The position numbers were made by a program, and so were the translations under genes. The notes below the pieces were generated by a model, which was not told the origin of the DNA, searched no databases, and saw nothing but the letters and a program-made list of their open reading frames with translations. From Leptothrix discophora (GTDB lineage Bacteria > Pseudomonadota > Gammaproteobacteria > Burkholderiales > Burkholderiaceae_C): a stretch of 64,000 nt of DNA. Positions within the stretch are counted from its first letter, which is position 1. The number at the start of each line of letters is the position of its first letter. This document shows positions 47,951 through 61,003 of this stretch, piece by piece. The stretch spans positions 186,001-250,000 of the forward strand of contig NZ_JAUZEE010000004.1 of NCBI RefSeq assembly GCF_030705305.1, given 5' to 3'.

Positions 47951-48041
47951 GGAGAGGTGGCAGAGTGGTCGAATGCGCCGGACTCGAAATCCGGTATACG
48001 GTACCCCCGTATCGAGGGTTCGAATCCCTCCTTCTCCGCCA
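47951..48041 (+). tRNA. tRNA-Ser, anticodon CGA
   Basis: 91 nt including an encoded CCA. The acceptor stem GGAGAGG pairs with CTTCTCC (one G-T), the anticodon stem CCGGA/TCCGG encloses CTCGAAA with anticodon CGA at 47985-47987 (reads UCG), a long variable arm follows (class II tRNA), and the T arm carries GGTTCGAATCC. It is preceded by serS. Its 3' end is the integration target of the island; the gene itself is intact. Confidence 0.97.
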
Positions 48042-48083
48042 AGATGAAGCCCAAGTGATTGATTCACTTGGGCTTTTTTCTTG
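48028..48083. repeat. attL, left direct repeat (tRNA 3' end plus terminator)
   Basis: It begins CTCCTTCTCCGCCAAGA, covering the last 14 nt of tRNA-Ser, then two mismatch positions relative to the right copy, then 37 identical bases including the whole terminator hairpin. Confidence 0.92.
48047..48079 (+). terminator. tRNA-Ser terminator
   Basis: AAGCCCAAGTGA, five-base loop, TCACTTGGGCTT, then TTTT: a textbook rho-independent terminator ending the tRNA transcript. It lies inside the attL repeat. Confidence 0.92.
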
Positions 48084-48353
48084 CCTTGTCCAATCACCCA
48101 ACTTCCTACCCATCATCCGGAAATCGCTGAATCCGAGCTCCGGAAGAAGCGTCGACCCCCAGGGCGCCGCCCGCCGTCGGAGCTTCCGCCAACCAGCGAG
48201 TCAAGGGCAGGCACCGCCTGGCGCAGCGTACCCTTGATGCGATGGTTGGTGGATCGACGCTCGTCGGATCGGGCTGGCCACCGGAGAGGCCGGCCCGATC
48301 CAGACCGTCGGCGTGGTTCATCTCGTCGAAGGCATCCTTTCTGACAACTTCCA
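48084..48353. other. Non-coding left end of the island
   Basis: About 270 bp with only short overlapping open frames of no recognisable family. A palindromic GGATCG/CGATCC flavour recurs (48252-48303), but I see no transposon end or complete gene. It may be a scar of earlier insertions at this tRNA. Confidence 0.4.
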
Positions 48354-48390
48354 ATGATGGTATAAATCATCGGATCATTTCATTGATGAA
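48354..48390 (+). promoter_or_regulatory. Promoter/operator of the abiE pair
   Basis: A TATAAAT (48361-48367) lies inside an ATGAT-N7-ATCAT inverted repeat (48354-48370), and a second palindrome, TTCATTGATGAA, spans 48379-48390. AbiEi antitoxins of the studied systems repress their own promoter by binding inverted repeats; this site is a plausible target just before the GAGGA Shine-Dalgarno. Confidence 0.55.
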
Positions 48391-48405
48391 CCGAGGATAC
48401 GCACC

Positions 48406-49038
48406 GTGCCATCAGGCTCAAGTTCTACTCTGCTGACCCAACGCGACCGGGTCCATGCCCTGCTGCGTCAGCGTGGGCTGGCGCGCCTGTCGGAACTGAA
48501 GGCCGAGGGCATCACGGCCACCACGGTCAGTCGCATGGAGCAAGCCGGCGAACTGGTTCGGCTGGCACGGGGCCTCTATCAACTGCCCGATGCCTCGCTC
48601 GACGTGCATCAGTCCCTCGCCGAGGCGTCTCGCCTTGTGCCGCGTGGCGTGATCTGCCTGAGTTCCGCCCTGGCGTTCCACGGCTTGACCGACCAGATGC
48701 CAGCCCAGGTCTGGATCGCCATCGGCCGCAAGGACTGGCGCCCACGGGTGACCTACCCGCCGCTGCGCGTGGCCCGTTACTCGGACGAGGAACTGGGGCG
48801 CGACGTCGAATCGGCGCAGATCGCCGGCATCGTGGTGCCCATCTTCGGTGTGGCGAAGACGCTGGCAGATCTGTTCCGATATCGCCGCAGCGTCGGAGAA
48901 CTGATCGCCGTCGAAGGGCTGCGACAGGCCCTGCGGCAACGCAAGGTGACCCCGTCCGAGATCGCCAACGCCGCGCAGACCGGTGGTGTCTGGCGCGCGA
49001 TGCAGCCCTATCTGATGGCGCTGACCAGCGATGCCTGA
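48406..49038 (+). CDS. abiEi: Type IV toxin-antitoxin system antitoxin AbiEi
   Basis: A 210-residue protein with an N-terminal winged helix (RVHALLRQRGLARLSELKAEGI, then RGLYQLPDA) and the AbiEi C-terminal domain (RGVICLSSALAFHGLTDQMP). In studied systems AbiEi represses the operon and neutralises AbiEii. GTG start with GAGGA eight bases upstream; no other start fits. It overlaps the toxin gene by eight bases. It likely stabilises the island or gives phage defence. Confidence 0.9.
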   Translation: MPSGSSSTLLTQRDRVHALLRQRGLARLSELKAEGITATTVSRMEQAGELVRLARGLYQLPDASLDVHQSLAEASRLVPRGVICLSSALAFHGLTDQMPAQVWIAIGRKDWRPRVTYPPLRVARYSDEELGRDVESAQIAGIVVPIFGVAKTLADLFRYRRSVGELIAVEGLRQALRQRKVTPSEIANAAQTGGVWRAMQPYLMALTSDA

Positions 49039-49924
49039 AATGCCTTCGAAGGGCACGCGCCAGGTCGGCGCCTCGGTGCGCCAACGCCTGCTGAACCTGG
49101 CCAATGCTCGAGGCGAGCCGCTGGACCTGCTGCTGACCCGCTACACGCTCGAACGCCTGCTGCACCGACTCAGCCTGTCGCCCCACCGTGATCGCTTCGT
49201 GCTCAAGGGCGCGATGCTGCTGACGACCTGGTTTGAAGAGCCCCATCGCGCCACCCGCGACCTGGACCTGCTCGGCTTCGGCGACCCGGCCGACGACGCG
49301 CTGCTGGCGGTGTTCCGTGAGGTCATGGCGATCCCGGTCGACGATGGACTGAGCTTCAATCTCGACGCCCTGTCGATCGGGCCAATCCGCGAAGACAACG
49401 ACTACGGCGGCTCGCGGTTGCGCACTACGGCCAACCTGGCAGGTGCGCGCGTCACCGTGGTCATCGACATCGGCTTTGGTGATGCGGTGGAGCCGGGCCT
49501 CGATCTCATCGACCTGCCGGTGCTGCTGGACCTGCCGGCACCGCGTCTGCGCGCCTATCCCCGAGAGACCGTGGTTGCCGAGAAGCTGCATGCCATGGTC
49601 GTGCTCGGCCTCGCCAACAGCCGCATGAAGGACTACTTCGATCTGTGGATGTTGCTGGCCACGTTCGAGTTCGATCCCCTCTGCTTGCAGCAGGCCGTCC
49701 AGGCCACCTTCCAGCGACGCGGCACACCGGTACCGGATCAAGTGCCCGTCGGGCTGAGCGATGTGTTCTCAGCGGACCCGAGCAAGCAACAGCAGTGGAG
49801 CGCCTTCGCGCGCAACCTGTCGAAGGAAGCGCCGAGCCTGGTCGACGTCGTGACGAGCTTGAGGGATCGTCTGAGCGACCTCTTTGACCCGGACGCTCGT
49901 CAGCGCTCCCAGTCCGGTCCTTGA
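49031..49924 (+). CDS. abiEii: Type IV toxin AbiEii, nucleotidyltransferase
   Basis: A 297-residue DUF1814 nucleotidyltransferase. DRFVLKGAMLLTTWFEEPHRATRDLDLLGFGD carries the conserved DxD-type metal residues, and RETVVAEKLHAMVVLG with SRMKDYFDLWMLL the downstream Lys and Asp motifs. AbiEii toxins cause reversible growth arrest and abort phage infection. The 3' end overlaps the 3' end of the convergent relaxase gene by 25 bp. Confidence 0.92.
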   Translation: MPEMPSKGTRQVGASVRQRLLNLANARGEPLDLLLTRYTLERLLHRLSLSPHRDRFVLKGAMLLTTWFEEPHRATRDLDLLGFGDPADDALLAVFREVMAIPVDDGLSFNLDALSIGPIREDNDYGGSRLRTTANLAGARVTVVIDIGFGDAVEPGLDLIDLPVLLDLPAPRLRAYPRETVVAEKLHAMVVLGLANSRMKDYFDLWMLLATFEFDPLCLQQAVQATFQRRGTPVPDQVPVGLSDVFSADPSKQQQWSAFARNLSKEAPSLVDVVTSLRDRLSDLFDPDARQRSQSGP

Positions 49925-50901
49925 GGTGTCCGTCCCGTCGAGGGCGCTGGTGCACGATCGCCACCCCTCGACACCCCTGGCAACGTGCGCTGTGCGGCCT
50001 GCTCCGGCGATTTGGACCGAACCCCCGGCAAATGCCGCGCATAGCCCACGACCAGGCGCGCCAGTTCACGGTCCCCCGCGTCGTCCGAGGTCGCCAGCGC
50101 GTTCGCGATCTCGACCCAGGCCAGAGCCACCTGTCGACGGCTGGGCGTGAGCTTCACGTTGTCGCCTTCCGATGGCGAGGCGCCGCCTTCCCCGCGCTCG
50201 CGGGCCTTGATCTGCCACAGCCGCTCGTTGTGGTGCCGACTCCCGCGCGTGACCCGAGACGAGGCCTCGGCCTCGATGCCCCAGCCGCGCAGCTTCTCCG
50301 CGAACACCTCGCGCCAGCGGCGCAGATCCTCCTTGCGCGGGTTCAAGCGTTTGCCGTCGCGCCCTTCGGCCCGCACGCTCAGGTGCACATGCGGATTGGC
50401 CTGGTGGGTATGCAGGACCATGACGTAGCGGTGTCTGGCCAGCTCGTCGGCGGCAAACTCTCGCACCGCCTGCTTCAGGTAGGTCGTGTTCGTGCCCTCG
50501 GGCATCGACAGCATGATGTTGAACGCCTCGCGCCGCTCGCTGCGATCGGGGATGCGCGTGCCACCCAGGCGCCATTGGCTCACCACGTCCTGCAGGGCTT
50601 CCTGGCCCTCGCGCACGACACCCCGATCGTCTTCGATCGGCAGCTGTCCACTCTTGCTGATGTAGCGCAGGTGGGCCGCGATGGGGCCCATGCCGCGACC
50701 TCCACCGGTGACCTTGACCATGACTTGCGGGGCGCGTGACTTGACGGTGGCCGCCAGCCGCTTGCGCACCCAGGCCGCGCGGTCGTGCAGGCTGGCCGTT
50801 CGTGGCCCTCCTGGCGCAGCCGATGTGCGGCGATTGCCGGCATAGAAGAGGCGGTCGCCCCACAGGACGAGCACGCCATCGACACGATTCGCGCTGGTCA
50901 T
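49900..50901 (-). CDS. Relaxase/mobilization nuclease, MOBP-like
   Basis: A 333-residue relaxase. VMVKVTGGGRGMGPIAAHLRYISKSG contains the probable active-site Tyr region (motif I), and HTHQANPHVHLSVRA is the histidine-rich metal motif III of MOBP/VirD2-type relaxases. A basic C-terminal tail follows. It would nick at oriT and lead the transferred strand. The ATG at 50901 has GGAGA five bases upstream; a TTG at 50916 is an alternative. It follows the accessory protein by 11 bp. Confidence 0.88.
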   Translation of the reverse strand: MTSANRVDGVLVLWGDRLFYAGNRRTSAAPGGPRTASLHDRAAWVRKRLAATVKSRAPQVMVKVTGGGRGMGPIAAHLRYISKSGQLPIEDDRGVVREGQEALQDVVSQWRLGGTRIPDRSERREAFNIMLSMPEGTNTTYLKQAVREFAADELARHRYVMVLHTHQANPHVHLSVRAEGRDGKRLNPRKEDLRRWREVFAEKLRGWGIEAEASSRVTRGSRHHNERLWQIKARERGEGGASPSEGDNVKLTPSRRQVALAWVEIANALATSDDAGDRELARLVVGYARHLPGVRSKSPEQAAQRTLPGVSRGGDRAPAPSTGRTPQGPDWER

Positions 50902-50912
50902 GGCCTTCTCCT

Positions 50913-51437
50913 TCAAAGTCCCGACAGGACCTTCGACGCCCGGTCGAGGTGGGCCTGCATCGCCACATCCATCTTTCGAAGTCGCTGGGCGAACGGCTCG
51001 GCCTCTTCCCGCTTCGCCAGATGGACGAGGCGCAGGAACGCATGGAGGTCGACCGACAAGGCGGCCATCGCATCGTTGGAGGCCAGCAGGGCTGCTCGGT
51101 CCGCCTCCCGTTCGGCCACGGGTTGAGGCAGCGGGGCTTCGCGCACCAGGCGCGCCACGACATCCCCATATGACAGCCCCAAGTGCCCGGCCATGAACGT
51201 CAGTCGCTCGGCATCGGCGATGGGTAGTCGCAGGGTCAGCTTGGTGATGCGTCGGCGGGGGCCTATGGCGATCTCATGACCCGGACGTTCAACGTCAGTT
51301 CGAGGGCCGATGGCCTCCACGATCGAAGCCCGTGCGAGGGCCGCCACCGTGACGCCACGATCCACAGCCGCTGACCGAACGGCATCACCGATGCCGCGCA
51401 GGTCAACCATGACGCGGTCACGCGAGGCGCTGGCCAT
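50913..51437 (-). CDS. Relaxosome accessory protein, RHH-like (MobC/TraJ role)
   Basis: A 174-residue protein directly before the relaxase gene. The central segment ITKLTLRLPIADAERLTFMAGHLGLSYGDVVARLV has the strand-helix-helix pattern of ribbon-helix-helix DNA-binding proteins, and the N terminus repeats a similar pattern (VTVAALARASIVEAIG). The C-terminal half is helical and charged. Position and fold suggest it guides the relaxase to oriT. No family name is certain. ATG at 51437; a GTG six bases upstream is possible. Confidence 0.65.
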   Translation of the reverse strand: MASASRDRVMVDLRGIGDAVRSAAVDRGVTVAALARASIVEAIGPRTDVERPGHEIAIGPRRRITKLTLRLPIADAERLTFMAGHLGLSYGDVVARLVREAPLPQPVAEREADRAALLASNDAMAALSVDLHAFLRLVHLAKREEAEPFAQRLRKMDVAMQAHLDRASKVLSGL

Positions 51438-51489
51438 GACCACCGCCCACGTCGGCCAGGCCGCGTGGCATCCAAATGCTGGCGGGACG

Positions 51490-51501
51490 CCTATCCTGCC
51501 C
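51490..51501 (+). other. Putative oriT nic site, IncP type
   Basis: CCTATCCTGCCC equals the core around nic in IncP plasmid oriT (cut ATCCTG^C; here between 51498 and 51499). It lies 53 bp before the accessory-relaxase operon, where such an origin is expected. A small GCAT-CCAA-ATGC inverted repeat is next to it (51468-51479). Confidence 0.7.
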
Positions 51502-51521
51502 TAGCCTTCCAAACACCCTAT

Positions 51522-52451
51522 TCATGGCTCGATTCCTCGGCCTGGTTCGGTGTCAGGGGTCTGACCGTCAGACCCCATGGGCAGCAAATCTGCCAGCGCC
51601 AATAGGCGACGCCGCAGATCGACGATCTCGTCTGCATCGCCCGACGGCTTGATGCGAGGCAGCAAGCGCTCGAGGCGATCGCAAGCTGCGTGAGCCTGAT
51701 GGACGGGCCGTGAGCCAGATGCCCGATGTGTCAATCGGATTGACTCCGGCGCTTCTCGGAGCGCGGCCACCGCCTCGCGCGTGATGGGCTCAGCGGCATC
51801 GACCAATGACTGCACCTGCTCTGGTCGGTGCGCGTGCAGCTTGCTCAGTTCATGCAGCGTTCGCGGTGAGGTGCAGCGGCCGGACTTGAGGGCAGCATCG
51901 AGCACGGGCGGCAGGTCGAGCAAGGTCAGGTGGTGAGCTACCGTCGTGAGGTTCATGCCCAGCCGTCGGGAGACCTCAGCCTGCGTGTCACCGGCATCGA
52001 TCTGCCCACGGATGAACCGGGCCAGGTCGATCGGTGTGAGGTTGGCACGCTTGAGGTTCTCGGCGACCTGCGCGTAACGATCGGTGCGATCGAGGCGAAC
52101 GACCACGGGGACTTCGGTCAGACCGGCCTGCCGCGCAGCACGCAGTCGACGGGCGCCGAAGTGCAGCAGGTAGCGGCCTTGGGGATTGGCAGGGTGGATG
52201 ACCAGGGGCACGAGGAGCCCGCGCAGGACGATGTCGGCGGCCAGCGCGTCAAGGTCGGCTTCGACGAAGTCGAAGCGGGGGCTGGCAGGGTCCTCGTCGA
52301 TCAGCTCGATCGGAACAAGGCATGGCGCGTTCGGACGCGATCTCCGAGCGGACCTTCTTGCGTTGACGCCTGAGGTCCGTGAAGTGCCTGGCGTGAGCTC
52401 GCTACCCAGCAGATCAAGTTGGGCATCGACCTGAGCATCTCCCTGGCGCAT
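51522..52451 (-). CDS. ParB/RepB/Spo0J family protein
   Basis: A 309-residue ParB. The CTP-binding N-domain is present (LVPIELIDEDPASPRFDF, GLLVPLVIHP, YLLHFGARRLRAARQAGLTEVPVVV), as is the ENLKRANLTPIDLARFI segment. The central HTH follows (TQAEVSRRLGMNLTTVAHHLTLLDLPP). The extreme N terminus (about 45 residues) is Arg/Ser-rich. No ParA ATPase is present, so segregation or a transcription role is open. It stands between a decayed IS fragment and the putative oriT. Confidence 0.85.
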   Translation of the reverse strand: MRQGDAQVDAQLDLLGSELTPGTSRTSGVNARRSARRSRPNAPCLVPIELIDEDPASPRFDFVEADLDALAADIVLRGLLVPLVIHPANPQGRYLLHFGARRLRAARQAGLTEVPVVVRLDRTDRYAQVAENLKRANLTPIDLARFIRGQIDAGDTQAEVSRRLGMNLTTVAHHLTLLDLPPVLDAALKSGRCTSPRTLHELSKLHAHRPEQVQSLVDAAEPITREAVAALREAPESIRLTHRASGSRPVHQAHAACDRLERLLPRIKPSGDADEIVDLRRRLLALADLLPMGSDGQTPDTEPGRGIEP

Positions 52452-52692
52452 GGGCGGATCGTGCCGATCGTTGTGCGATCAGGAAAGCACTCCGCAACAT
52501 GCTGATGTGGCTCATTGTTTGAGCCAGGACGCTCCACGAGAGGTCAGGTGAGTTCAGAGCATTCCACGTCGGTTTCAATCACTTACACCGCCCGTCGCGG
52601 GAAGTCATTTCCACGCCGCTCTGGAAGGCAGCTGAAGTACAGCCACTGACAGTCCCGATGCGCCTTGCGCGACGATCACGGAAGAACCCTAT
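52452..52692. other. Non-coding gap between parB and the transposase remnant
   Basis: 240 bp without a supportable gene. A short TGTGGCTCATTGTTTGAGCCAGG inverted arrangement near 52505 (GGCTCA/TGAGCC) could be a small hairpin. A lost parA may have stood here, but no trace is readable. Confidence 0.35.
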
Positions 52693-52875
52693 TTGCGCGG
52701 GCCCGACACCTACACCGAAGGCTTGTTCACGATGCGTCGGCTCGACGACTTCATGCCGGCCAACCATCCTTTGCGTCGGATCCGTGTCACGGCCAACGAG
52801 GCCCTGACCAAGATGGATTCCCTGTTCTCGGCCATGTACGAAGCCCACCTCACGGGTGGCCGGGCGAGCCGGCCG
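52693..52875 (+). pseudogene. Remnant of an IS5-type (DUF772) transposase
   Basis: The frame reads about 61 residues, from MRGPDTYTEGLFTMRRLDDF through NHPLRRIRVTANEALTKMD to TGGRASRP, which matches the N terminus of IS5-family DUF772 transposases. Beyond this point the similarity stops and no catalytic domain remains. The next 105 bp up to the peptidase stop hold no gene. It marks a past insertion and deletion beside parB. Confidence 0.75.
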
Positions 52876-52980
52876 CAATGTCTTTGCGAGAGCGATCTCG
52901 CCAGGCCCGTCAGCGGCCACGCAAGTGGCCGGGTAGCGTTGTGGGAACGCTTTACGCCCGCAGCGTGGCCACGGGCGTGG

Positions 52981-54051
52981 TCATGCACGCCAGGACTTGC
53001 CCGCGAACCGCCCTCGTTCCGGTTCGCCTTGCCATTGCCCAGGATCGGGTCCCCACGGCACCGCTGGCGAGGGTTGTTCAAGAAGCACACACACCACCTC
53101 ACCGAGATCGACGCCGAGGTATTGCCGCGCCGCGGCAGAACCTGCATCAGCACCATCGGCAGCCAAGACGAACTGCTTGAACGGCTCCCACGGGCGGCTC
53201 AACTGCTCGACGATCAGGCGCGCAAGATCGTAGGAGAGTAGGTTGCCATCATCAGGCCGCAGGAACGAACGACCTGACCAGAAATCTTGAATGTCTCGCG
53301 GCCTCCAGAAGGCCAAGTGCCTCGCATGCAGTTGTTGCGGCGTATGGGTCGGCGGTGTACGACAGAGGCGGCGCTCAACGTTCACCGCTAGGCCTTCATT
53401 TAACCAAGCCGGCAGCGGTAAGTGACCGAGGCAACCATGGGTCATTTCATGAGCGATGACCGGCTCGATCAGCCGAAGATCGGCCTTGATGGTCACATAG
53501 TGGCTGCAACCGGCATCAATATGCATGCCACCGCTAAATGCGTACTCCCCGGCGTTTGGATAATAGTACGAGACATATCGGTAGTAGCTCTCATAATCGT
53601 CGAAGATGATCATTACTTCTTGCCCCGCCGCCGGCATGCGCGCAACGCCATCAAGCATGCTCGCCACACGTTGGAGCGTGCGCTCCATGTAGTCGAGCGC
53701 GGCGCCCGCCACTTTCGGTTCGAGTGAGGACAACAGCAGAACGTTCTTCGATTCCCTCAGCCGGAAGCTCGGGCCAAGAGCGCAACGCATATGCAGCAAC
53801 CATACTCGCTTGGCTTCCCGCCACGCTGCGCTCTGATGCGCTGCCGACTCGATGCGTGACAACCAGTCGCAAACATCCTCCCAGGCCATCACCGGATAGC
53901 CCTCGTGGCGCTCACTGTGCTCGCCAGCAGCGAAGCTGGAAGCACCCTCGATAACTACCTCTGAGGGAGGTGGTTCAGAGTCCTGTGCCGAGTCCGCCTT
54001 TGCGTCTGGCGAAGCTCGCTTTCGACCGAACAAATCACGAAACGAGATCAT
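52981..54051 (-). CDS. Putative HEMTH zinc metallopeptidase of unknown family
   Basis: A 356-residue protein with no signal peptide. The segment VIAHEMTHGCLGHLPLPAWLNEGLAV has an HExxH motif followed by a Glu in LNEGLA, the layout of gluzincin (peptidase MA-like) proteases. Upstream YYRYVSYYYPNAGEYAFSGGMHID is Tyr-rich and the N terminus is acidic and disordered. I do not recognise the family beyond that. It is the last gene of the RHS operon, 39 bp after the small membrane protein gene; its codon use is less GC-biased than chromosomal neighbours. Confidence 0.7.
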   Translation of the reverse strand: MISFRDLFGRKRASPDAKADSAQDSEPPPSEVVIEGASSFAAGEHSERHEGYPVMAWEDVCDWLSRIESAAHQSAAWREAKRVWLLHMRCALGPSFRLRESKNVLLLSSLEPKVAGAALDYMERTLQRVASMLDGVARMPAAGQEVMIIFDDYESYYRYVSYYYPNAGEYAFSGGMHIDAGCSHYVTIKADLRLIEPVIAHEMTHGCLGHLPLPAWLNEGLAVNVERRLCRTPPTHTPQQLHARHLAFWRPRDIQDFWSGRSFLRPDDGNLLSYDLARLIVEQLSRPWEPFKQFVLAADGADAGSAAARQYLGVDLGEVVCVLLEQPSPAVPWGPDPGQWQGEPERGRFAGKSWRA

Positions 54052-54090
54052 GCCGACACGTGGCGCCGTCGCACGTTGAGCACCGGGGCA

Positions 54091-54357
54091 TCAGTCAAGG
54101 CGTTTGCTACCCTTGATCCGGCTGATCAGCGGTACAAGAAACAGTGCAGCCAACACGACGAAGAACCCTCCGGTCAGGATTTTGAGTAAACCCGGCCCAA
54201 GTAGACCAGCCAATGCCCTCGGGATGTCGCATTGCTTGAAGCAAAGCACCAAGGGATCTAGGTCTGTAAAGAGGACTGCCAAGCCGACGAGAAGCAGAAT
54301 TGCACCAATCAGCCCAGCTCCGAACTTGTCAACCTTCATCTCGGCCTGTTTCTCCAT
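54091..54357 (-). CDS. Small two-TM membrane protein, candidate immunity protein
   Basis: An 88-residue protein with two hydrophobic segments (about 12-30, GLIGAILLLVGLAVLF; about 55-80, ILTGGFFVVLAALFLVPLI) separated by a short loop with LCFKQCD. Its ATG lies 22 bp inside the end of the second RHS gene, the position where immunity genes sit beside polymorphic toxins. No family is recognised, and an immunity role is inference from position. GC content is clearly below the chromosome. Confidence 0.6.
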   Translation of the reverse strand: MEKQAEMKVDKFGAGLIGAILLLVGLAVLFTDLDPLVLCFKQCDIPRALAGLLGPGLLKILTGGFFVVLAALFLVPLISRIKGSKRLD

Positions 54358-56687
54358 TTGCCGTAAAGATCTGCCCAGTCCTTCTCATCCCAGAGACTCG
54401 GTGTTCCCTTTGGCATGAAGCGTGGGTCATCGCACACGCAGCCCTCTGGGGCACTGTTCGGATTCGTTTGTGCCGGGATGAAGTCGGTCGATCTCCTAGA
54501 CCGGCCTCTATGGTCATATGCGTCCGGGAAGCACATTTCAGCCCCCTCACACTTCCATCGCAAGCAAACGAACTCGCCTTCATCGTTGAAGTAGCCGGCA
54601 GCATCCATCCAAGGATTCCCTGTATCGTGCGCGGGACGAGGCTGACTTGGATTCGGGAATCGAGGACGAGGCCTGAACGGCGTGTAGTGACCATTCTGAG
54701 TTCGAAACAGCCCGTCGGGATCCGTGTAGCCCAGCGGATTGCCCTCGACATATGCATATGTGTTGATGCCACCACCGAGCCCGATGGGATCTGACTGCAT
54801 ATATCGCCCCAACCAAGCCGCATAGTCACGATGGTGGTTGTAGAACCCTGTGGTTTCCCGATCGTACACCTGCCCAGGGAACCGGAGGTTGAAGGTGTAG
54901 ACACCCAGCGCATTTGGGTTCTCGTTGACCGGCGTGACACCGAAGCTCTCGAAGCTGTCCCAGCGCCAGACGATGGCGTGGTCGCTGCTACGGGTCACGA
55001 TGCGGGGCGTGTTCAGGTGATCGGCGTAGACGTAGTCGATGCGGGTGGCCACGTTCAAGGTCGCGCCGCTGCCGGTGCGGGTCTGCTTGACCACCGCCAC
55101 CGGCTGGTCACCCAGCCAGACCACCTCGTAGATCGGGATGCCTGAGGCGTCGTACTCCCCGAGGATGTGCCCGTCCTCGTCGTAGGCGTAGTGCACCGCC
55201 CCGGTGGTCACAAGGGTCGTGACGCCGCTCTTGCGCACCCGCTGCTCCAGCCCGTTGTACCAGTAGTTCACCGGCGTGGTCGTGGTCGCGCTGGTTGGGA
55301 TGATGGCCTGGCTGAGGCGGCCACGATCGCTGTAGACAGCACCGCCTGCCGAGCCGTTCCCGGTGATGTTGCCAGCGTTGTCATAGGTCGGGACATCGGT
55401 TACCAGCGAGCCCGTGGAGTTCACGCGCTGGACGCTCGTCAGCCGGTTGCTGGTCGCGCTGACCTGGTTGGCGAAACGTGTGGCCGACACGAAGAACTCG
55501 GTGCGATTGCCGTTGGCGTCGTAGCTGTACGAATAGCTGGTCGTGCCTTGGTTCGAGCGCGTGAGCCGGCCCAGCCCGTCGTACACGAAGGCCTGGTCGA
55601 ACGCGGCCTGAGCCACGCCACTTCGGGTGTGGCTGTACGCGGTGATCCGACCGGCATCGTCATAACCGACGGTGCGCAACAGCCCTGCCGCCGTACCTGT
55701 CCCGATCGGATTGCCCAAGGGATAGGTCTTGGGCCGGCCATAGCTGTCCCAGGTCCGCGCATAGGTCACCGGCCCCGTGCCCCAGGTCCAACCCTTGGCA
55801 TTGCCCATCGCGTCGTACGCGATCGTCGTCAGGATCGACGTCGTGACGGTGGCGTTGGTGCCGACCCCGTTGGCATTGACCGGGTTGAGCGTCAGCCCGC
55901 TGACGCGACCGGTCAGGTCGTAGCTCAGGTTCACGCGCGCCCCGCTGGGCAGCGTGACGGTTTTGAGGTGCCCGTTGTCGGCACCCGCACTTCCCCAGCC
56001 GTACCGGACATCGAAAGTACGCGCTGTGGCCTGTCCGGTGACCAGGACCGTCTGCAGCTTGCGAACCACCCGACCCAGACCGTCGTACGTGTAGGCCGTG
56101 TTGCCGCTCTCATCGGTGATCTTGGTCAGACGGCCGATGCTGTTGGCAGGCTTGGGCGTGACGGTGCCGCCGTCGTACTCGAAGACGGTGTCCACCCCGG
56201 TCGGGTAGTCGATCTTGGTGAGCCGATTGAGTGCGTCGTAGGTATAGAGGACCTGCTTGCCACGGGCATCGGTGCGGGTCTTGAGGTTGCCGGCTGCATC
56301 AAAGGTGGCACTGGTTGTCCCTGTGTCGGGACTGACCTGACTGGTGCGATCGCCCAGGCCGTTGGCGGTGTAGCTGGTCACCAGGTTGCGAGGGTCCGTG
56401 AGCCCAGCCGGCTGATCCGCCAGGTCCCAGCTCGGACGCACCACCGGACGTGCCACGCCGGTGGCGGGCAAAGGCTGTGTCACCTGCACTGGCCTTCCCA
56501 GAGCGTCGTATTGCGTCTGTGTGGTCAGCCCCAGTGGATCGACCACGGTGTGGCGATTGCCCATCGGGTCGTAGCCGAAGGTGGAGGTCATCACGCCCGG
56601 TGCCGGGCTCTGCGCCAGGACGAGCGAGGACAACATCGAGCCTGAGGCGCCCAGCAACAGGGCGAGGGTGTGGGTAACGCGCTTCAC
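54336..56687 (-). CDS. YD-repeat (RHS) protein B with short variable C terminus
   Basis: A 783-residue RHS protein with its own Sec signal peptide (MKRVTHTLALLLGASGSML, then SLVLAQS). YD repeats run throughout (FGYDPMGNRHTV, YDALGRPVQV, YTYDALNRLTKIDYP). The conserved RHS core boundary YMQSDPIGLGGGINTYAYVEGNPLGYTDPDG ends near residue 660. The last ~123 residues are unrelated, proline-rich, and hold five cysteines (VCLRWKCEGAEMC, CVCDD) and a charged tail: the usual place of a toxin tip. Its ATG overlaps the stop of RHS protein A (ATGA). Confidence 0.85.
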   Translation of the reverse strand: MKRVTHTLALLLGASGSMLSSLVLAQSPAPGVMTSTFGYDPMGNRHTVVDPLGLTTQTQYDALGRPVQVTQPLPATGVARPVVRPSWDLADQPAGLTDPRNLVTSYTANGLGDRTSQVSPDTGTTSATFDAAGNLKTRTDARGKQVLYTYDALNRLTKIDYPTGVDTVFEYDGGTVTPKPANSIGRLTKITDESGNTAYTYDGLGRVVRKLQTVLVTGQATARTFDVRYGWGSAGADNGHLKTVTLPSGARVNLSYDLTGRVSGLTLNPVNANGVGTNATVTTSILTTIAYDAMGNAKGWTWGTGPVTYARTWDSYGRPKTYPLGNPIGTGTAAGLLRTVGYDDAGRITAYSHTRSGVAQAAFDQAFVYDGLGRLTRSNQGTTSYSYSYDANGNRTEFFVSATRFANQVSATSNRLTSVQRVNSTGSLVTDVPTYDNAGNITGNGSAGGAVYSDRGRLSQAIIPTSATTTTPVNYWYNGLEQRVRKSGVTTLVTTGAVHYAYDEDGHILGEYDASGIPIYEVVWLGDQPVAVVKQTRTGSGATLNVATRIDYVYADHLNTPRIVTRSSDHAIVWRWDSFESFGVTPVNENPNALGVYTFNLRFPGQVYDRETTGFYNHHRDYAAWLGRYMQSDPIGLGGGINTYAYVEGNPLGYTDPDGLFRTQNGHYTPFRPRPRFPNPSQPRPAHDTGNPWMDAAGYFNDEGEFVCLRWKCEGAEMCFPDAYDHRGRSRRSTDFIPAQTNPNSAPEGCVCDDPRFMPKGTPSLWDEKDWADLYGKWRNRPR

Positions 56688-59155
56688 GGCTGGACTCCGG
56701 TCACGCTCTGAACACGGCCCAGGGCGTCATAGACCCGGGTCACATTGCGCGCCAGGACGCCAGCCGGGTCCTTGAGCGCTTCTGCCGTGCGATTGCCTGC
56801 GTTGTCCAGCGTGTAGGTGATCGTGTTGCCTGCGCCGTCCTTGATGCCCGTGAGGCGATGCGCTGCGTCATAGCTGTAGGTGATCTTGGTGGCGTCGGGC
56901 AGCGTGGCTTCCTTGAGCTGCCCCACCCCGTCGTACAAGTAGGACGTGGTCTGCGCAGCGCCGGCACCCGTCGGAGGACTGACCGCGACCGAGTTCACCC
57001 ATCCGCGTGGTGTGTAGGTGATGTTCGTGACCACGCCATTGGGATCGACGCTGCGTTTGAGGCGACCGGCGCGGTCGTATACCGTGAACTGCGTGATGTG
57101 GCCGGCCGCGTTGGTGATGCTCTGCAAGTCACCCAGGGTGTGATCGACCGTCGAGTCAGCGTAGTACGCGTAGGTGGTCAGGTTGCCGAGTGCGTCCCGG
57201 GCGGTGAGCACTTGGCCGAACGCGTTGTAGGTGTAGCTGGTCACGCGTGCCGCGCCCGAAGGCGTTGCGGCAAAGCCCGCACTGCCATTGACGTCGGTCG
57301 TGGCTTGTTCGACCTGTTTGCACAGCACGGCAATCGGATTGCCGTCGGGCAGCACAGCCGTCGCCGGAGCGCAATTGAGCGCCACATTGCCTGCGGTCGG
57401 GTCCGGCTGGCCGTTGTAAACCCAGGTCGTGATCTTCTTCGGCTCGGCCAGGCGGGTCTTCAGATTCCAGATGGGATGCCACTGCGTGCTGATCTTGCGC
57501 TTGACATTCCCGGCGGGGATCACATTGCCGCTGACAGGGTATTGACACGCCTCAGTGGCGTGATTCAAGCCCTCCACTCTTGCAGTTTCCAGTCGCCGCC
57601 CTGAATCATTGTCGAAGCATGTCTTGACAGCATTGAAATCCACCGACGCGCGAACGAGTCCAGCTGTGTCGTAGTAGGTGCTGCTCGACGCTGCTGCACA
57701 CCCAGCCCCAGCGGGTTGGCTTTGGCTGGCAACGCGCGGAATCCCCAACCCCATTTCTACCCCGTAGTTCGTGATGCTGCCATTGGGCGTGGTCATGGAC
57801 GGCGCAACCGGGAGTCCCCAAGCATGATCACGCCAAACAACGCCGGCGGTTGCATCGAAAGTCTCTGACACATTCCACGTCGGAACACTGACGTACGAGG
57901 CTGTGAAGCGGTTCACCCCGCCGGCCAGTTCGGTTCCTATGGCACGACCCGCGACATCGTACGTGTAAGTGCTGTGACGCGATGCATTCTCATCAAGAAT
58001 GCCTGTCAATGCCCAAGGCAGGCCCGGCAACTCGTAGACGTATTGCCGGGACGTTGAATCTTGCCAGGTGAACTGACTCAACATTCCGCCAACCAAGTAT
58101 GAAACCAAGATGGTTCGACCATCGGGATCAGTGATCGACTTGATGCGAGGCACACCGGTGGACGCGTCTTGCTCATAGGCGAACTGCAGCACCCGCCCCG
58201 TCTGGTCTTGAATACCGATGATCAAGCCCGCCACAGGTGCCACGGTCAATGGCGTCGCGACATCACTGTAGAGATAGGTTAGGACTGTTCCATCTGCAGA
58301 CTTGATGTCAACCAACCGCCCATCTGCACGATACGTCTCGACCGATTGCGCGGCAGCGTCAATGTAGCGCCATCCATCAGGCGTCGCCACCAACCGATCT
58401 CGCACGTCAGTACTGGCACGATAAAGACCGCTTGCATCAAGGAGAAAGTCAACCCAGACGCCACCACCCCGTGACGCCTGTATACCCTGCTTGACACCAT
58501 TCAGGCCTGTTTGAAAGATCAAGCTCTTGTGTAGATTACTATCCCATTGAGATCCGAACGAAGGTGCCGGTCGTGACACCGGCAACTCCGCGCCACCTTC
58601 TGCCGGAAAATTCCGCCTACTGTCATATTGCGCAGAAAGGCGAATGCCGCCAATCTCAGCGGTCAGGCTTTCAGTCTGTCGCTTTGTGGCCGTGAGTGGG
58701 TAAATGGGGTTTCCGCCGCGCGGCTGCTCGCACGATTGCGGCTTGCCGGCGTATCGATCAACAATTTGAACACAGGCTCCCGCTTGGGCAACCCACAGAC
58801 TGTTTGCCGCACAAAATGTCCAAGCTGCTGAACCCCCGACGTGATCGCCACCACCTTCGGCGGTTTTGTTGTAGGCGTAGTCACACCGCCCTGACTCTGA
58901 CACATTGGCGGGAACAGCGCTGCAGGTATCAACGTATAACGAAGCAAGATATGGGCAACTCGCCGTATAAGCCATCAAGGCAGAAATAGCCTCGCTCACA
59001 CCAGAATAAGTTCCAGAAAAACTACCACACTTCCAGTCAGCACCGCTTGCGGTCGCGCTGATGAACCGTGCTGGTGCATTCTGTGCGCCGGCAGTTAGGC
59101 TTATAACAGCCAAACTCGCGATCGAAACGATTGATCGTCTGATTCTTGCAGCCAT
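56684..59155 (-). CDS. YD-repeat (RHS) protein A, N-terminal partner
   Basis: An 823-residue exported protein. Signal peptide MAARIRRSIVSIASLAVISL, then a ~200-residue cysteine-containing non-YD domain, then an RHS/YD barrel-type repeat region (YEQDASTGVPRIKSITDPDG, YTYNAFGQVLTARDALGN, YDRAGRLKRSVDPNGV, YSYDAAHRLTGIKDGAG). It ends in VYDALGRVQSVTGVQP exactly where repeats would continue, and protein B resumes. AGGGAGG four bases before ATAAATG is a strong Shine-Dalgarno. The 5' half has lower GC than the 3' half. Together A and B make one RHS-sized unit in two chains. Confidence 0.85.
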   Translation of the reverse strand: MAARIRRSIVSIASLAVISLTAGAQNAPARFISATASGADWKCGSFSGTYSGVSEAISALMAYTASCPYLASLYVDTCSAVPANVSESGRCDYAYNKTAEGGGDHVGGSAAWTFCAANSLWVAQAGACVQIVDRYAGKPQSCEQPRGGNPIYPLTATKRQTESLTAEIGGIRLSAQYDSRRNFPAEGGAELPVSRPAPSFGSQWDSNLHKSLIFQTGLNGVKQGIQASRGGGVWVDFLLDASGLYRASTDVRDRLVATPDGWRYIDAAAQSVETYRADGRLVDIKSADGTVLTYLYSDVATPLTVAPVAGLIIGIQDQTGRVLQFAYEQDASTGVPRIKSITDPDGRTILVSYLVGGMLSQFTWQDSTSRQYVYELPGLPWALTGILDENASRHSTYTYDVAGRAIGTELAGGVNRFTASYVSVPTWNVSETFDATAGVVWRDHAWGLPVAPSMTTPNGSITNYGVEMGLGIPRVASQSQPAGAGCAAASSSTYYDTAGLVRASVDFNAVKTCFDNDSGRRLETARVEGLNHATEACQYPVSGNVIPAGNVKRKISTQWHPIWNLKTRLAEPKKITTWVYNGQPDPTAGNVALNCAPATAVLPDGNPIAVLCKQVEQATTDVNGSAGFAATPSGAARVTSYTYNAFGQVLTARDALGNLTTYAYYADSTVDHTLGDLQSITNAAGHITQFTVYDRAGRLKRSVDPNGVVTNITYTPRGWVNSVAVSPPTGAGAAQTTSYLYDGVGQLKEATLPDATKITYSYDAAHRLTGIKDGAGNTITYTLDNAGNRTAEALKDPAGVLARNVTRVYDALGRVQSVTGVQP

Positions 59156-59585
59156 TTATCCTCCCTCTGCCTTAATTCTGTGCCTCATTCGAAGCCGCCT
59201 CGCCGTCTGATGACCCATTCCAACCCGAACAAGCAGATCGAAAAATCAAAAATGTGAGTGGCGCCACCTTCAGGCCACAGTCGCTTGAATTCGAACTGAC
59301 GAATATTGCTTGGGATGATTCTTTCATTTGAGGGGCGCGCTGCACTCCCCCAAATTGATGAAGTGGTTTTACTCTGGACAATCGGCCCCTGAACGGATAT
59401 GTACAGCATCACCACAAGCTCGATCTGAGCCAGATGACGGTTTCTTGACTGTTTGATTGCGGGTTGATAACTGTAAAAGATTATTCTTTGTCAGTATTTC
59501 GTCAGGTATCGCCCTTGCGGGTGACTGCCCATGCCTGAAAGACTCCTCGGTCGATTCGACGAATGGATCGGTCATGACATGCAGG
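59156..59585. other. 430-bp gap upstream of the RHS operon
   Basis: AT-richer DNA between the integrase stop and the RHS operon. Two short minus-strand frames overlap here (59172-59381 and 59185-59415), neither with a recognisable family nor a clear Shine-Dalgarno. The operon promoter should lie here; I cannot place hexamers with confidence. Confidence 0.4.
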
Positions 59586-60797
59586 TCAATTCGCAGCCAG
59601 AAACAGCGCCCAGTCCTCCATCAATCGGCGGCGTTTGTCGAACAGGTCGCCCCGCGCATAACTGGCCTCTGCCTTGTCCTTCAGCAGATGCGCCAAGGCG
59701 TGCTCGATCACTTCTCGTGCATGCGTGGTGCGCTCGCCAGCCCAGTCCCGAAAGGTCGATCTCATGCCATGTGCCGTCGCAGCCACCTTCATGCGTCTCA
59801 ACAGCGCCGTCAAGGCCATGTCGGACAACGTCTTGGCCTGGCCGTTGGGCAAGCGCTGCAGGCCCGGAAAGACGAGGATGTCGTGGTCAGGGCCTGGCAG
59901 CGATTTCAAGAGGAGGATCGCCGCTTCAGACAGCGGCACGCGGTGTTCCTTGCCTGCTTTCATGCGGTCGGCAGGCACCGTCCAAACTTGCTTGTCGAGG
60001 TCGATCTCTGACCAGCGCGCGCCTCGGACCTCGCCTGATCGCGCCGCAGTCAGCACCACGAACTCAAGCGCTCGGGCACCGATGCCAGGCTGCGTACGAA
60101 GCGTGCGCATGAAGGCTGGGACATCATCGACCGCCAACGCAGCGTGATGCTCGACTTGTGCGACCTTGGTCGGACGAGGCAAAAGCTTGTCGAGGTGTCC
60201 GCGCCACCGCGCCGGGTTCTCTCCCGACCGGTACTTGCGCACCGTCGCCCAGGCCAGCACCAGTTCGATCCGGCTGCGCAGTCGCGTGGCGGTCTCGGTC
60301 CTCGTTTGCCAGATGGGCTGGAGCACCGCCAGCACCTGGGGCAGATCGATGTCGCTGACCGGCAGTTTGCCCATCACGGGATAGGCGTATTGGGTCAGCG
60401 TGTTTGTCCATTGCTGGACGTGCTTCGCGTTCTTCCAGCCGGACTTGTTGTCGTCGATGTAGCGCGAGGCGCATTGCTCGAAGGTCAGCGCGTTGCTGCG
60501 CTTCAACGCGAGCGCTTTTCGTTCGGCCTGCTTCTGCTCGATAGGATCACCACCGCCGCGGATGACCTCTCGTGCATGTCGAGCCTGCAACCGCGCTTGT
60601 GCGAGGGAAACTTCTGGGTAGCCACCTAACCCCATGTCCCGACGACGCCCGGCAACCTTGACGCGCAGGATCCAACTGCGAGCACCGGAGGGCGCGACCT
60701 GCAACGCGAGTCCTGGCATGCCACCGACCGAGTGCAGTCCCGGCTCGGTCAACGTGGCCACTTGGGTGGCCTTGAGTGCAGCAGCGATCTTGGGCAT
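59586..60797 (-). CDS. int: P4-type tyrosine integrase
   Basis: A 403-residue site-specific recombinase with an N-terminal DUF4102 arm-binding domain (VGGMPGLALQVAPSGARSW), a core-binding domain, and a catalytic domain: Arg in LTAARSGEVRGARWSEID, HGMRSTFRDWAGER with the His-x-x-Arg pair, then IEHALAH and the nucleophile Tyr in ASYARGDLFDKRRRLMEDW. All catalytic residues look intact. The ATG at 60797 has GGAG six bases upstream. It lies 150 bp inside the right repeat and reads into the island. It is the likely enzyme for integration at tRNA-Ser. Confidence 0.95.
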   Translation of the reverse strand: MPKIAAALKATQVATLTEPGLHSVGGMPGLALQVAPSGARSWILRVKVAGRRRDMGLGGYPEVSLAQARLQARHAREVIRGGGDPIEQKQAERKALALKRSNALTFEQCASRYIDDNKSGWKNAKHVQQWTNTLTQYAYPVMGKLPVSDIDLPQVLAVLQPIWQTRTETATRLRSRIELVLAWATVRKYRSGENPARWRGHLDKLLPRPTKVAQVEHHAALAVDDVPAFMRTLRTQPGIGARALEFVVLTAARSGEVRGARWSEIDLDKQVWTVPADRMKAGKEHRVPLSEAAILLLKSLPGPDHDILVFPGLQRLPNGQAKTLSDMALTALLRRMKVAATAHGMRSTFRDWAGERTTHAREVIEHALAHLLKDKAEASYARGDLFDKRRRLMEDWALFLAAN

Positions 60798-60947
60798 AGG
60801 CGACTCCTGCCCCACATCCTACCCAACATAAATATTGGAATGGATCAGATTTCCTGACATTGAACGGGACGATCGATAGCCAATCATCACTATGAGAACC
60901 GCTCAATCCGGACGTACTGGGATCGCCTTGAATATCAAAAACACGGA
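60798..60947 (-). promoter_or_regulatory. Integrase promoter and attachment arm region
   Basis: 150 bp of AT-rich DNA (TAAATATTGGAATGGATCAGATTTCC near 60829, TTGAATATCAAAAACACGG beside attR) between the integrase start and the right repeat. This is where the integrase promoter and its arm-type binding sites are expected; no consensus hexamers are convincing. Confidence 0.45.
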
Positions 60948-61003
60948 CTCCTTCTCCGCCAAGACAAAGCCCAAGTGATTGATTCACTTGGGCTTTTTTC
61001 TTG
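60948..61003. repeat. attR, right direct repeat
   Basis: A copy of the last 14 nt of tRNA-Ser plus downstream DNA, identical to attL over 54 of 56 bases; the two differences are adjacent (CA here, TG in attL at 48045-48046). Beyond it the sequence diverges from the left copy. Confidence 0.92.
60967..60999 (+). terminator. Duplicated tRNA-Ser terminator hairpin in attR
   Basis: The same AAGCCCAAGTGA / TCACTTGGGCTT stem and T-run as behind the tRNA, now without a gene before it on the plus strand. It would insulate the chromosome from read-through out of the island. Confidence 0.85.

Follow-up and report, generated by a model that had tools for sequence, protein, structure and literature searches.

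The 12.9-kb stretch that lies within the serine-tRNA gene between positions 48028 and 61003 of the window (the whole 64,000-nucleotide stretch of DNA that was analysed) is foreign DNA and very probably constitutes an integrative and mobilizable element (IME) inserted at the 3' end of tRNA-Ser(CGA). The element is best read as a mosaic IME, that is, an element of a known kind in an unusual assembly, and judging from its genes it would carry most of what is needed for self-excision and for carriage by a borrowed conjugation machine. This reading rests on the direct repeats, the intact tRNA, an empty site in a genus relative, open integrase and relaxase frames, and six tRNA-Ser islands with related integrases. 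It is also based on the conservation of a nic-like core, relaxase loci sharing the accessory protein and ParB, a MOBP-typed plasmid relative, a relaxase relative at a second place in the genus, and the GC content. The anatomy of the element, its choice of site as seen by homology, the empty site, and the conservation of the nic-like core and of a palindrome are observed.

Insertion site and its state in relatives

An intact tRNA-Ser(CGA), the insertion target, was called by ARAGORN at 47951-48041 (+ strand). The left direct repeat (attL, 48028-48083, +) begins with the last 14 nt of this tRNA, as follows from the position of the called gene, and continues through the terminator, including its hairpin; the right repeat (attR, 60948-61003, +) begins 12,920 bp further on. 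The two copies are identical at 54/56 positions, and both mismatches fall outside the 14-nt tRNA part. An earlier note on this DNA had described 56-bp repeats with two mismatches at precisely this spacing, with the left one formed by the 3' end of an intact tRNA-Ser and its terminator, and both statements were reproduced. Within the window, aligning the 56-mer without gaps gave 28/56 as the next best result on the + strand, while the best matches on the - strand (35/56) were the repeats' own hairpins, inverted, and those elsewhere reached 30/56. In the whole genome the two repeat copies were the only matches above 90% covering the 56 bp; another tRNA-Ser-like place, at C25:320977-321115, matched the tRNA and terminator at 73%. 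The element thus shows the site-specific integration with direct repeats that is a feature of canonical IMEs, and its GC content (0.625) differs from that of its flanks (0.696 and 0.736).

Seryl-tRNA synthetase (SerRS) loci were fetched from 13 relatives (L138-L147 and L154-L156), eight from the genus and five from the family. SerRS and FKBP were identified by Pfam, and the GluQ and LysR labels were given by eye. Four of the 13 loci, all from the genus, include FKBP in the DNA that was fetched, and the flank comparison is based on these four. In genus relative G009 the order is SerRS, tRNA-Ser, FKBP, GluQ, LysR, with 76 bp from the tRNA to the end of the FKBP alignment. By this alignment G009 is an empty site, in which the homologue of the left flank joins that of the right flank; the adjoining of DNA left of 48028 and right of 61003 is what the earlier note had proposed looking for in relatives, and this outcome favours its reading. 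Other DNA separates tRNA-Ser and FKBP in the remaining three genomes (about 0.7 kb in G008, 2.6 kb in G007 and 12.6 kb in G011). G007 has the most similar SerRS (96%), and its tRNA and terminator match the window, i.e., the left copy, over 133/133 bp; a second copy was absent from the fetched stretch.

Two further observations concern this kind of site. The 12.6 kb in G011 (L142, 2038-14639) sits at the same tRNA-Ser; the window's integrase had no match in it, and the tRNA end there had no 12-bp repeat elsewhere in that stretch. Additionally, a 106-bp piece at L172 (G001:C5:260081-260186) is 96% identical to the 3' part of tRNA-Ser with its terminator, with no ARAGORN tRNA called there, and is possibly an old attachment scar.

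Gene content of the element

The mobilization genes lie on the - strand. The relaxase (49900-50916, -) is MobA/VirD2-like, carries HQANPHVH at residue 171 and matches PF03432 above cut-off (3.8e-11). Its match to NCBIfam MobP1 (2.2e-30) is nevertheless 106 bits under the cut-off of 200, a shortfall that was counted against the IME reading. The protein appears MOBP-like, and the element thus has its own relaxase of a canonical family, over the cut-off of PF03432 and under that of MobP1; a search for related solved structures returned none at 0.01. The gene before it encodes a weakly MobC-like relaxosome accessory protein (50913-51443, -), designated from its conservation in the loci and from a profile comparison with plasmid MobC (prob. 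63.6, E 6.7e-5); neither Pfam nor pairwise BLASTP against MobC gave a match. Upstream lies a nic-like core, GGCAGGATAGGC (51489-51500, -), with the nic-like TATCCTGC at 51492. The complement of this core contains CTATCCTGC, which we take to be the RP4-type nic sequence. The relaxase, accessory protein and nic-like site that the earlier note had placed inside the element were found there, and the nic-like site, a candidate nic, is conserved in relatives.

Next to the core is a gene for a ParB/KorB-like protein (51522-52451, -; PF02195 6.9e-14, PF08535 KorB 4.5e-8, TIGR00180 1.2e-28), and the 3' end of this gene holds a 21-bp palindrome, GGGGTCTGACCGTCAGACCCC (51556-51576). The 15-bp middle of the palindrome has a single location in the 4.65-Mb genome, which rules out a genome-wide repeat. 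Pfam detected no ParA among the ten main genes.

On the other side, the relaxase gene converges with an AbiE pair, its 3' end overlapping that of the second AbiE gene by 25 bp. The AbiEi-like antitoxin (48406-49038, +) scores 46.8 bits against a cut-off of 25 for Pfam AbiEi_4 and 1.9e-82 in PADLOC, and falls below the NCBIfam AbiEi equivalog (19.8 of 150 bits). The AbiEii-like nucleotidyltransferase toxin (49031-49924, +) matches Pfam AbiEii at 5.8e-49 and PADLOC at 4.7e-114, and its solved relative is 9hlo, named AbiGII (9.9e-29). The two genes are adjacent on one strand with frames overlapping by 8 bp, as in AbiE type IV toxin-antitoxin systems.

The right half carries cargo and the integrase. 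A 356-aa protein (52981-54051, -) contains HEMTH...NEGLA and is metallopeptidase-like by eye (NCBIfam HExxH 0.0023, far below cut-off). After a pair of RHS genes comes an open frame for an 88-aa hydrophobic protein (54091-54357, -), possibly an immunity protein. Neither this nor the 356-aa protein had a Pfam match, and an insertion-sequence remnant suspected by eye at 52693-53241 belonged to no Pfam family. The RHS pair encodes the N-terminal half (56684-59155, -; PF05593 3.1e-29) and the C-terminal half (54336-56687, -; PF05593 1.3e-34, Rhs_assc_core 5.3e-22) of a YD-repeat protein; the genes overlap by 4 bp, and the C-terminal half has, by eye, its own signal-peptide-like start. In relative G003 (L185, 753-3636) the first-half match runs to 1397 and a second start follows directly at 1411. 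Because G003 is arranged likewise, the RHS region is probably a real two-gene arrangement with no frameshift. G003 also has the C-terminal RHS half a second time, downstream of the first (G003:C152:21188-25570; L185, L187). The AbiE pair, the ParB-like protein and the RHS genes are additions to the gene list of the earlier note.

The tyrosine integrase (59586-60815, -) has a P4-type arm domain and an open frame with arm, central and catalytic domains (PF22022, PF13356, PF00589). Its motifs ARSGE at residue 258, HGMR at 349 and YAR at 386 are presumably the catalytic ones. An intact integrase beside the right repeat, as first described, is therefore confirmed, and the element has its own integrase, as canonical IMEs do. 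No transfer-pore or coupling family was found in the ten main genes by Pfam and NCBIfam, which agrees both with the earlier description and with the canonical class.

Relatives of the relaxase and of the integrase

A genome scan gave 116 relaxase relatives, of which the best 80 were kept with up to 10 kb on each side. By tblastn, 58 of these best 80 of the 116 loci held the accessory protein, 44 held ParB, 16 AbiEi and nine AbiEii. Seventeen of the 80 have the exact core GGCAGGATAGG upstream of the accessory gene. Among the 59 others with enough upstream sequence (four of the 80 were left out of this count), 39 carried a variant, GCAGAGATAGG in 29 and GCAGGATAGG in 10; the 20 with neither were counted against the IME reading. 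In 15 of the best 80 loci the 15-bp palindrome form preceded the relaxase by no more than 1500 nt, and GTCGGACnGTCCGAC, with both arms changed and the palindrome kept, was found in four. One form or the other preceded the core in 17/17 loci with the exact nic core and was present in 2/63 of the others, and a second copy occurred about 300 bp on in L063, L064, L067, L069, L072 and L073. This pattern marks the palindrome as a candidate ParB binding site, and conserved parB coding could account for part of its conservation. No tRNA 3'-end repeats were found in these best 80 of the 116 loci, nine of which held a tRNA call. Within the genus, the relaxase was present in two of 13 genomes, the host's own included, and the second copy is at a different place.

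Plasmids also carry relatives of the relaxase: 2,447 plasmid records matched, all below 60% identity. NZ_LR594661.1, typed MOBP and MPF_T, has a relaxase of 37% identity and resembles the element in the order ParB, DUF192, MobC, relaxase, with a ParB that is 38% identical over 183 aa. It represents a ParB-MobC-relaxase type that we take to be PromA, which differs in consisting of plasmids and in that the accessory proteins match weakly. Two observations here were counted against the IME reading, namely that the plasmid relative NZ_CP128437.1 is typed non-mobilizable and that no plasmid DNA match was found.

In a relaxase tree of 79 sequences, from which L081 and L096 of the best 80 were left out (L096, with 73% identity over 212 residues, comes from a contig that stops inside the relaxase), the window's relaxase groups with seven others with support of 99/90, and the exact nic core is present in all. 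Five of the seven clade-mates (L058, L059, L060, L062 and L066) have AbiEii and AbiEi beyond the relaxase, with one other predicted frame in between in L062; L061 has a Fic-family protein there, and in L065 the contig ends soon after the relaxase. A protein clustered with VirD4-type coupling proteins occurred in seven of the best 80 of the 116 loci (Pfam-confirmed in L123) and in none of the window's clade; because of these seven loci, self-transmissible kin probably exist in the wider group. Two metagenome bins of that group, L072 (2120-12270) and L073 (1068-11218), are 99.96% identical over 10,151 bp, with an unlike 0.8 kb adjoining on the left and DNA 95-98% alike again beyond it. Recent movement within the wider group may explain this, as may close-strain variation, and the comparison is silent on the window's element.

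The compact relatives bear on the origin of the element. In L058, L059, L062 and L066 the AbiE pair is followed by a 479-aa integrase (Pfam-confirmed in L062) that is only 22-27% like the window's, and attachment repeats in these four amounted to 11-12 bp matches or none. The shared mob-AbiE block with another integrase at the AbiE end suggests that two elements may have fused, a parB-mob-AbiE element having entered or settled beside an older tRNA-Ser island, the source of the integrase and RHS cargo; the GC content of the AbiE-ParB half (0.665-0.673) versus the other half (0.588-0.637) points the same way. Yet no third repeat copy was found inside the element, and the 479-aa integrase left no trace at the AbiE end, where the sole match under E 0.1 was the window's own integrase. 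Integrase, ParB, accessory gene and relaxase also stand in a one-strand row in L067, L069, L070 and L072. Fusion is a claim about origin that is compatible with the IME explanation, and we regard it as rather unlikely.

A second alternative is that a former mobile element is now fixed, readable but immobile without an excisionase and a helper. Neither PF05930 nor PF12728 matched inside the element and no excisionase was recognised there; AlpA-like ORFs (labelled by eye) of seven relatives matched the element at a best tblastn E of 0.060. Profiles for VirB4 (PF03135) and VirD4 (PF02534) had no match in the host genome (31 contigs, completeness 100), whereas of 14 control genomes they matched 1 and 5, respectively; by these profiles no helper conjugation system was found in the host. 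These absences were counted against the IME reading and, together with the two repeat mismatches, favour fixation. Against it, the integrase, relaxase, AbiE and ParB frames are all open, the nic-like core is as in relatives, and the mismatches spare the 14-nt tRNA part. We judge it unlikely that the element is fixed.

The integrase was followed through two sets of loci. In the first (20 loci, L038-L057, the window's own included), a pattern search matched, in nine, a sequence resembling a tRNA 3' end that runs outward from the start of the integrase, which is also the window's arrangement (L038, L040, L041, L044, L049, L051, L052, L054 and L055), and L045 and L057 show the same arrangement by eye. 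The tRNA itself adjoins the integrase in L048, L050 and L056, as it does in L154, a 35% relative. Pattern matches without a terminator (L039, L042 and L043) were set aside, and six of the 20 loci received no call. The second set comprised 17 loci, 15 of them integrase loci, and both island ends were readable in six of the 15 (L153, L159, L161, L163, L164 and L165). These islands measure 5.8 to 18.8 kb, sit at tRNA-Ser genes with anticodons CGA (four), GCT and GGA, have exact repeats 15-36 bp long (with more than one candidate in L153) and carry the integrase at the far end in 6/6 cases; in L169 and L170, which are short stretches, the integrase adjoins the tRNA. The window's integrase likewise lies at the end remote from the tRNA, as in most readable relatives. 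Its position does not follow the integrase tree, since the 3 changes over 16 labelled rows were equalled or undercut in 123 and 145 of 500 shuffles. The short repeats of the relatives point to crossover within the tRNA. No integrase relative above 60% was found in the 100 genomes scanned or in the IMG/VR scan, which was counted against the IME reading.

Islands L159 and L161 share the integrase clade, the tRNA-Ser 3' end and the far-end integrase with the window's element. They differ in gene content: both encode capsid, protease, portal and terminase, with a primase-like gene in L161, whereas the window's element has mob and AbiE genes. They are putative satellites, and the capsid set was also present on two of eight IMG/VR contigs bearing the window's integrase type. 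Although this clade is common to capsid-encoding islands, it is very improbable that the element is a phage satellite or prophage remnant travelling in phage particles, as Pfam found no capsid, terminase or portal family in its ten main genes and a relaxase and nic-like site are present. Another tRNA-Ser island, L163 (7067-16162), holds cytosine methylase, AIPR, Z1 and HATPase proteins and is defence-like. Taken together, the loci suggest tRNA-Ser 3' ends as the sites used by the integrase clade, in most cases with the integrase at the far end, and the islands concerned include capsid-encoding and defence-like ones.

Proposed movement and relation to known elements

For the preferred IME reading, we infer all activities, including the excision and helper-dependent mobilization that the earlier note had proposed. 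The integrase would recombine attL and attR at their tRNA 3' ends, the core probably being the 14 nt CTCCTTCTCCGCCA, thereby freeing a circle and leaving the tRNA gene whole. The relaxase and accessory protein would then nick at the RP4-like site (51492), the coupling protein and pore would come from a conjugative element of other origin, and the circle would re-insert at the 3' end of the recipient's tRNA-Ser. The ParB/KorB-like protein probably binds the palindrome, where it would regulate the mob operon or stabilise the circle, and AbiEi/AbiEii probably form an addiction and anti-phage module; the RHS, HExxH and 88-aa genes would be cargo.

The element resembles canonical IMEs in being integrated and in having its own integrase, its own relaxase and an oriT-like site without pore genes. 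The canonical class is defined in section 3.1 of a 2017 review by an own relaxase and no T4SS protein (PMC5704250), and corresponds to 'iMOB' in PMC11389934; that section of the review places no then-described proteobacterial IME in the class. In Mesorhizobium, a 2021 survey describes IMEs whose relaxases are MOBF or, in one, MOBQ; some of these IMEs lie at tRNA-Ser (PMC8627217). The Burkholderia glumae IncP island is, as described in PMC5704250, likewise a betaproteobacterial IME with a MobP relaxase, but is set apart by that description in encoding TraJ/TraK-like and some pore proteins. Tn4371-family ICEs share int, parB and relaxase blocks and differ, by their description in PMC11448139, in an oriT called distinct from previously identified ones. 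A literature search, mainly of titles and abstract starts, gave no recognised description of a parB-mob-AbiE group, which is no proof of absence.

New here are the conservation of the nic-like core, the candidate ParB palindrome, the placement of AbiE beyond the relaxase in the clade, and the use of tRNA-Ser by the integrase clade. As a tentative proposal, for which we claim somewhat less than even confidence, the element may belong to an undescribed Burkholderiales IME lineage. Its core would comprise parB with its palindromic site, nic, the accessory gene, the relaxase and convergent AbiE, placing defence or addiction inside the transfer module, and integrase swapping would change the insertion site, the integrase being drawn here from a pool of phage-satellite and defence islands.

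With its readable nic site and its candidate ParB site, such a compact group would make it possible to ask which helpers move these elements. It also raises the questions of what ParB does without a ParA among the ten main genes, and whether it is the element, the host or both that AbiE protects when it is part of a transfer module. Finally, the integrase clade at tRNA-Ser genes is common to a conjugation-type hitcher and to capsid-encoding islands.
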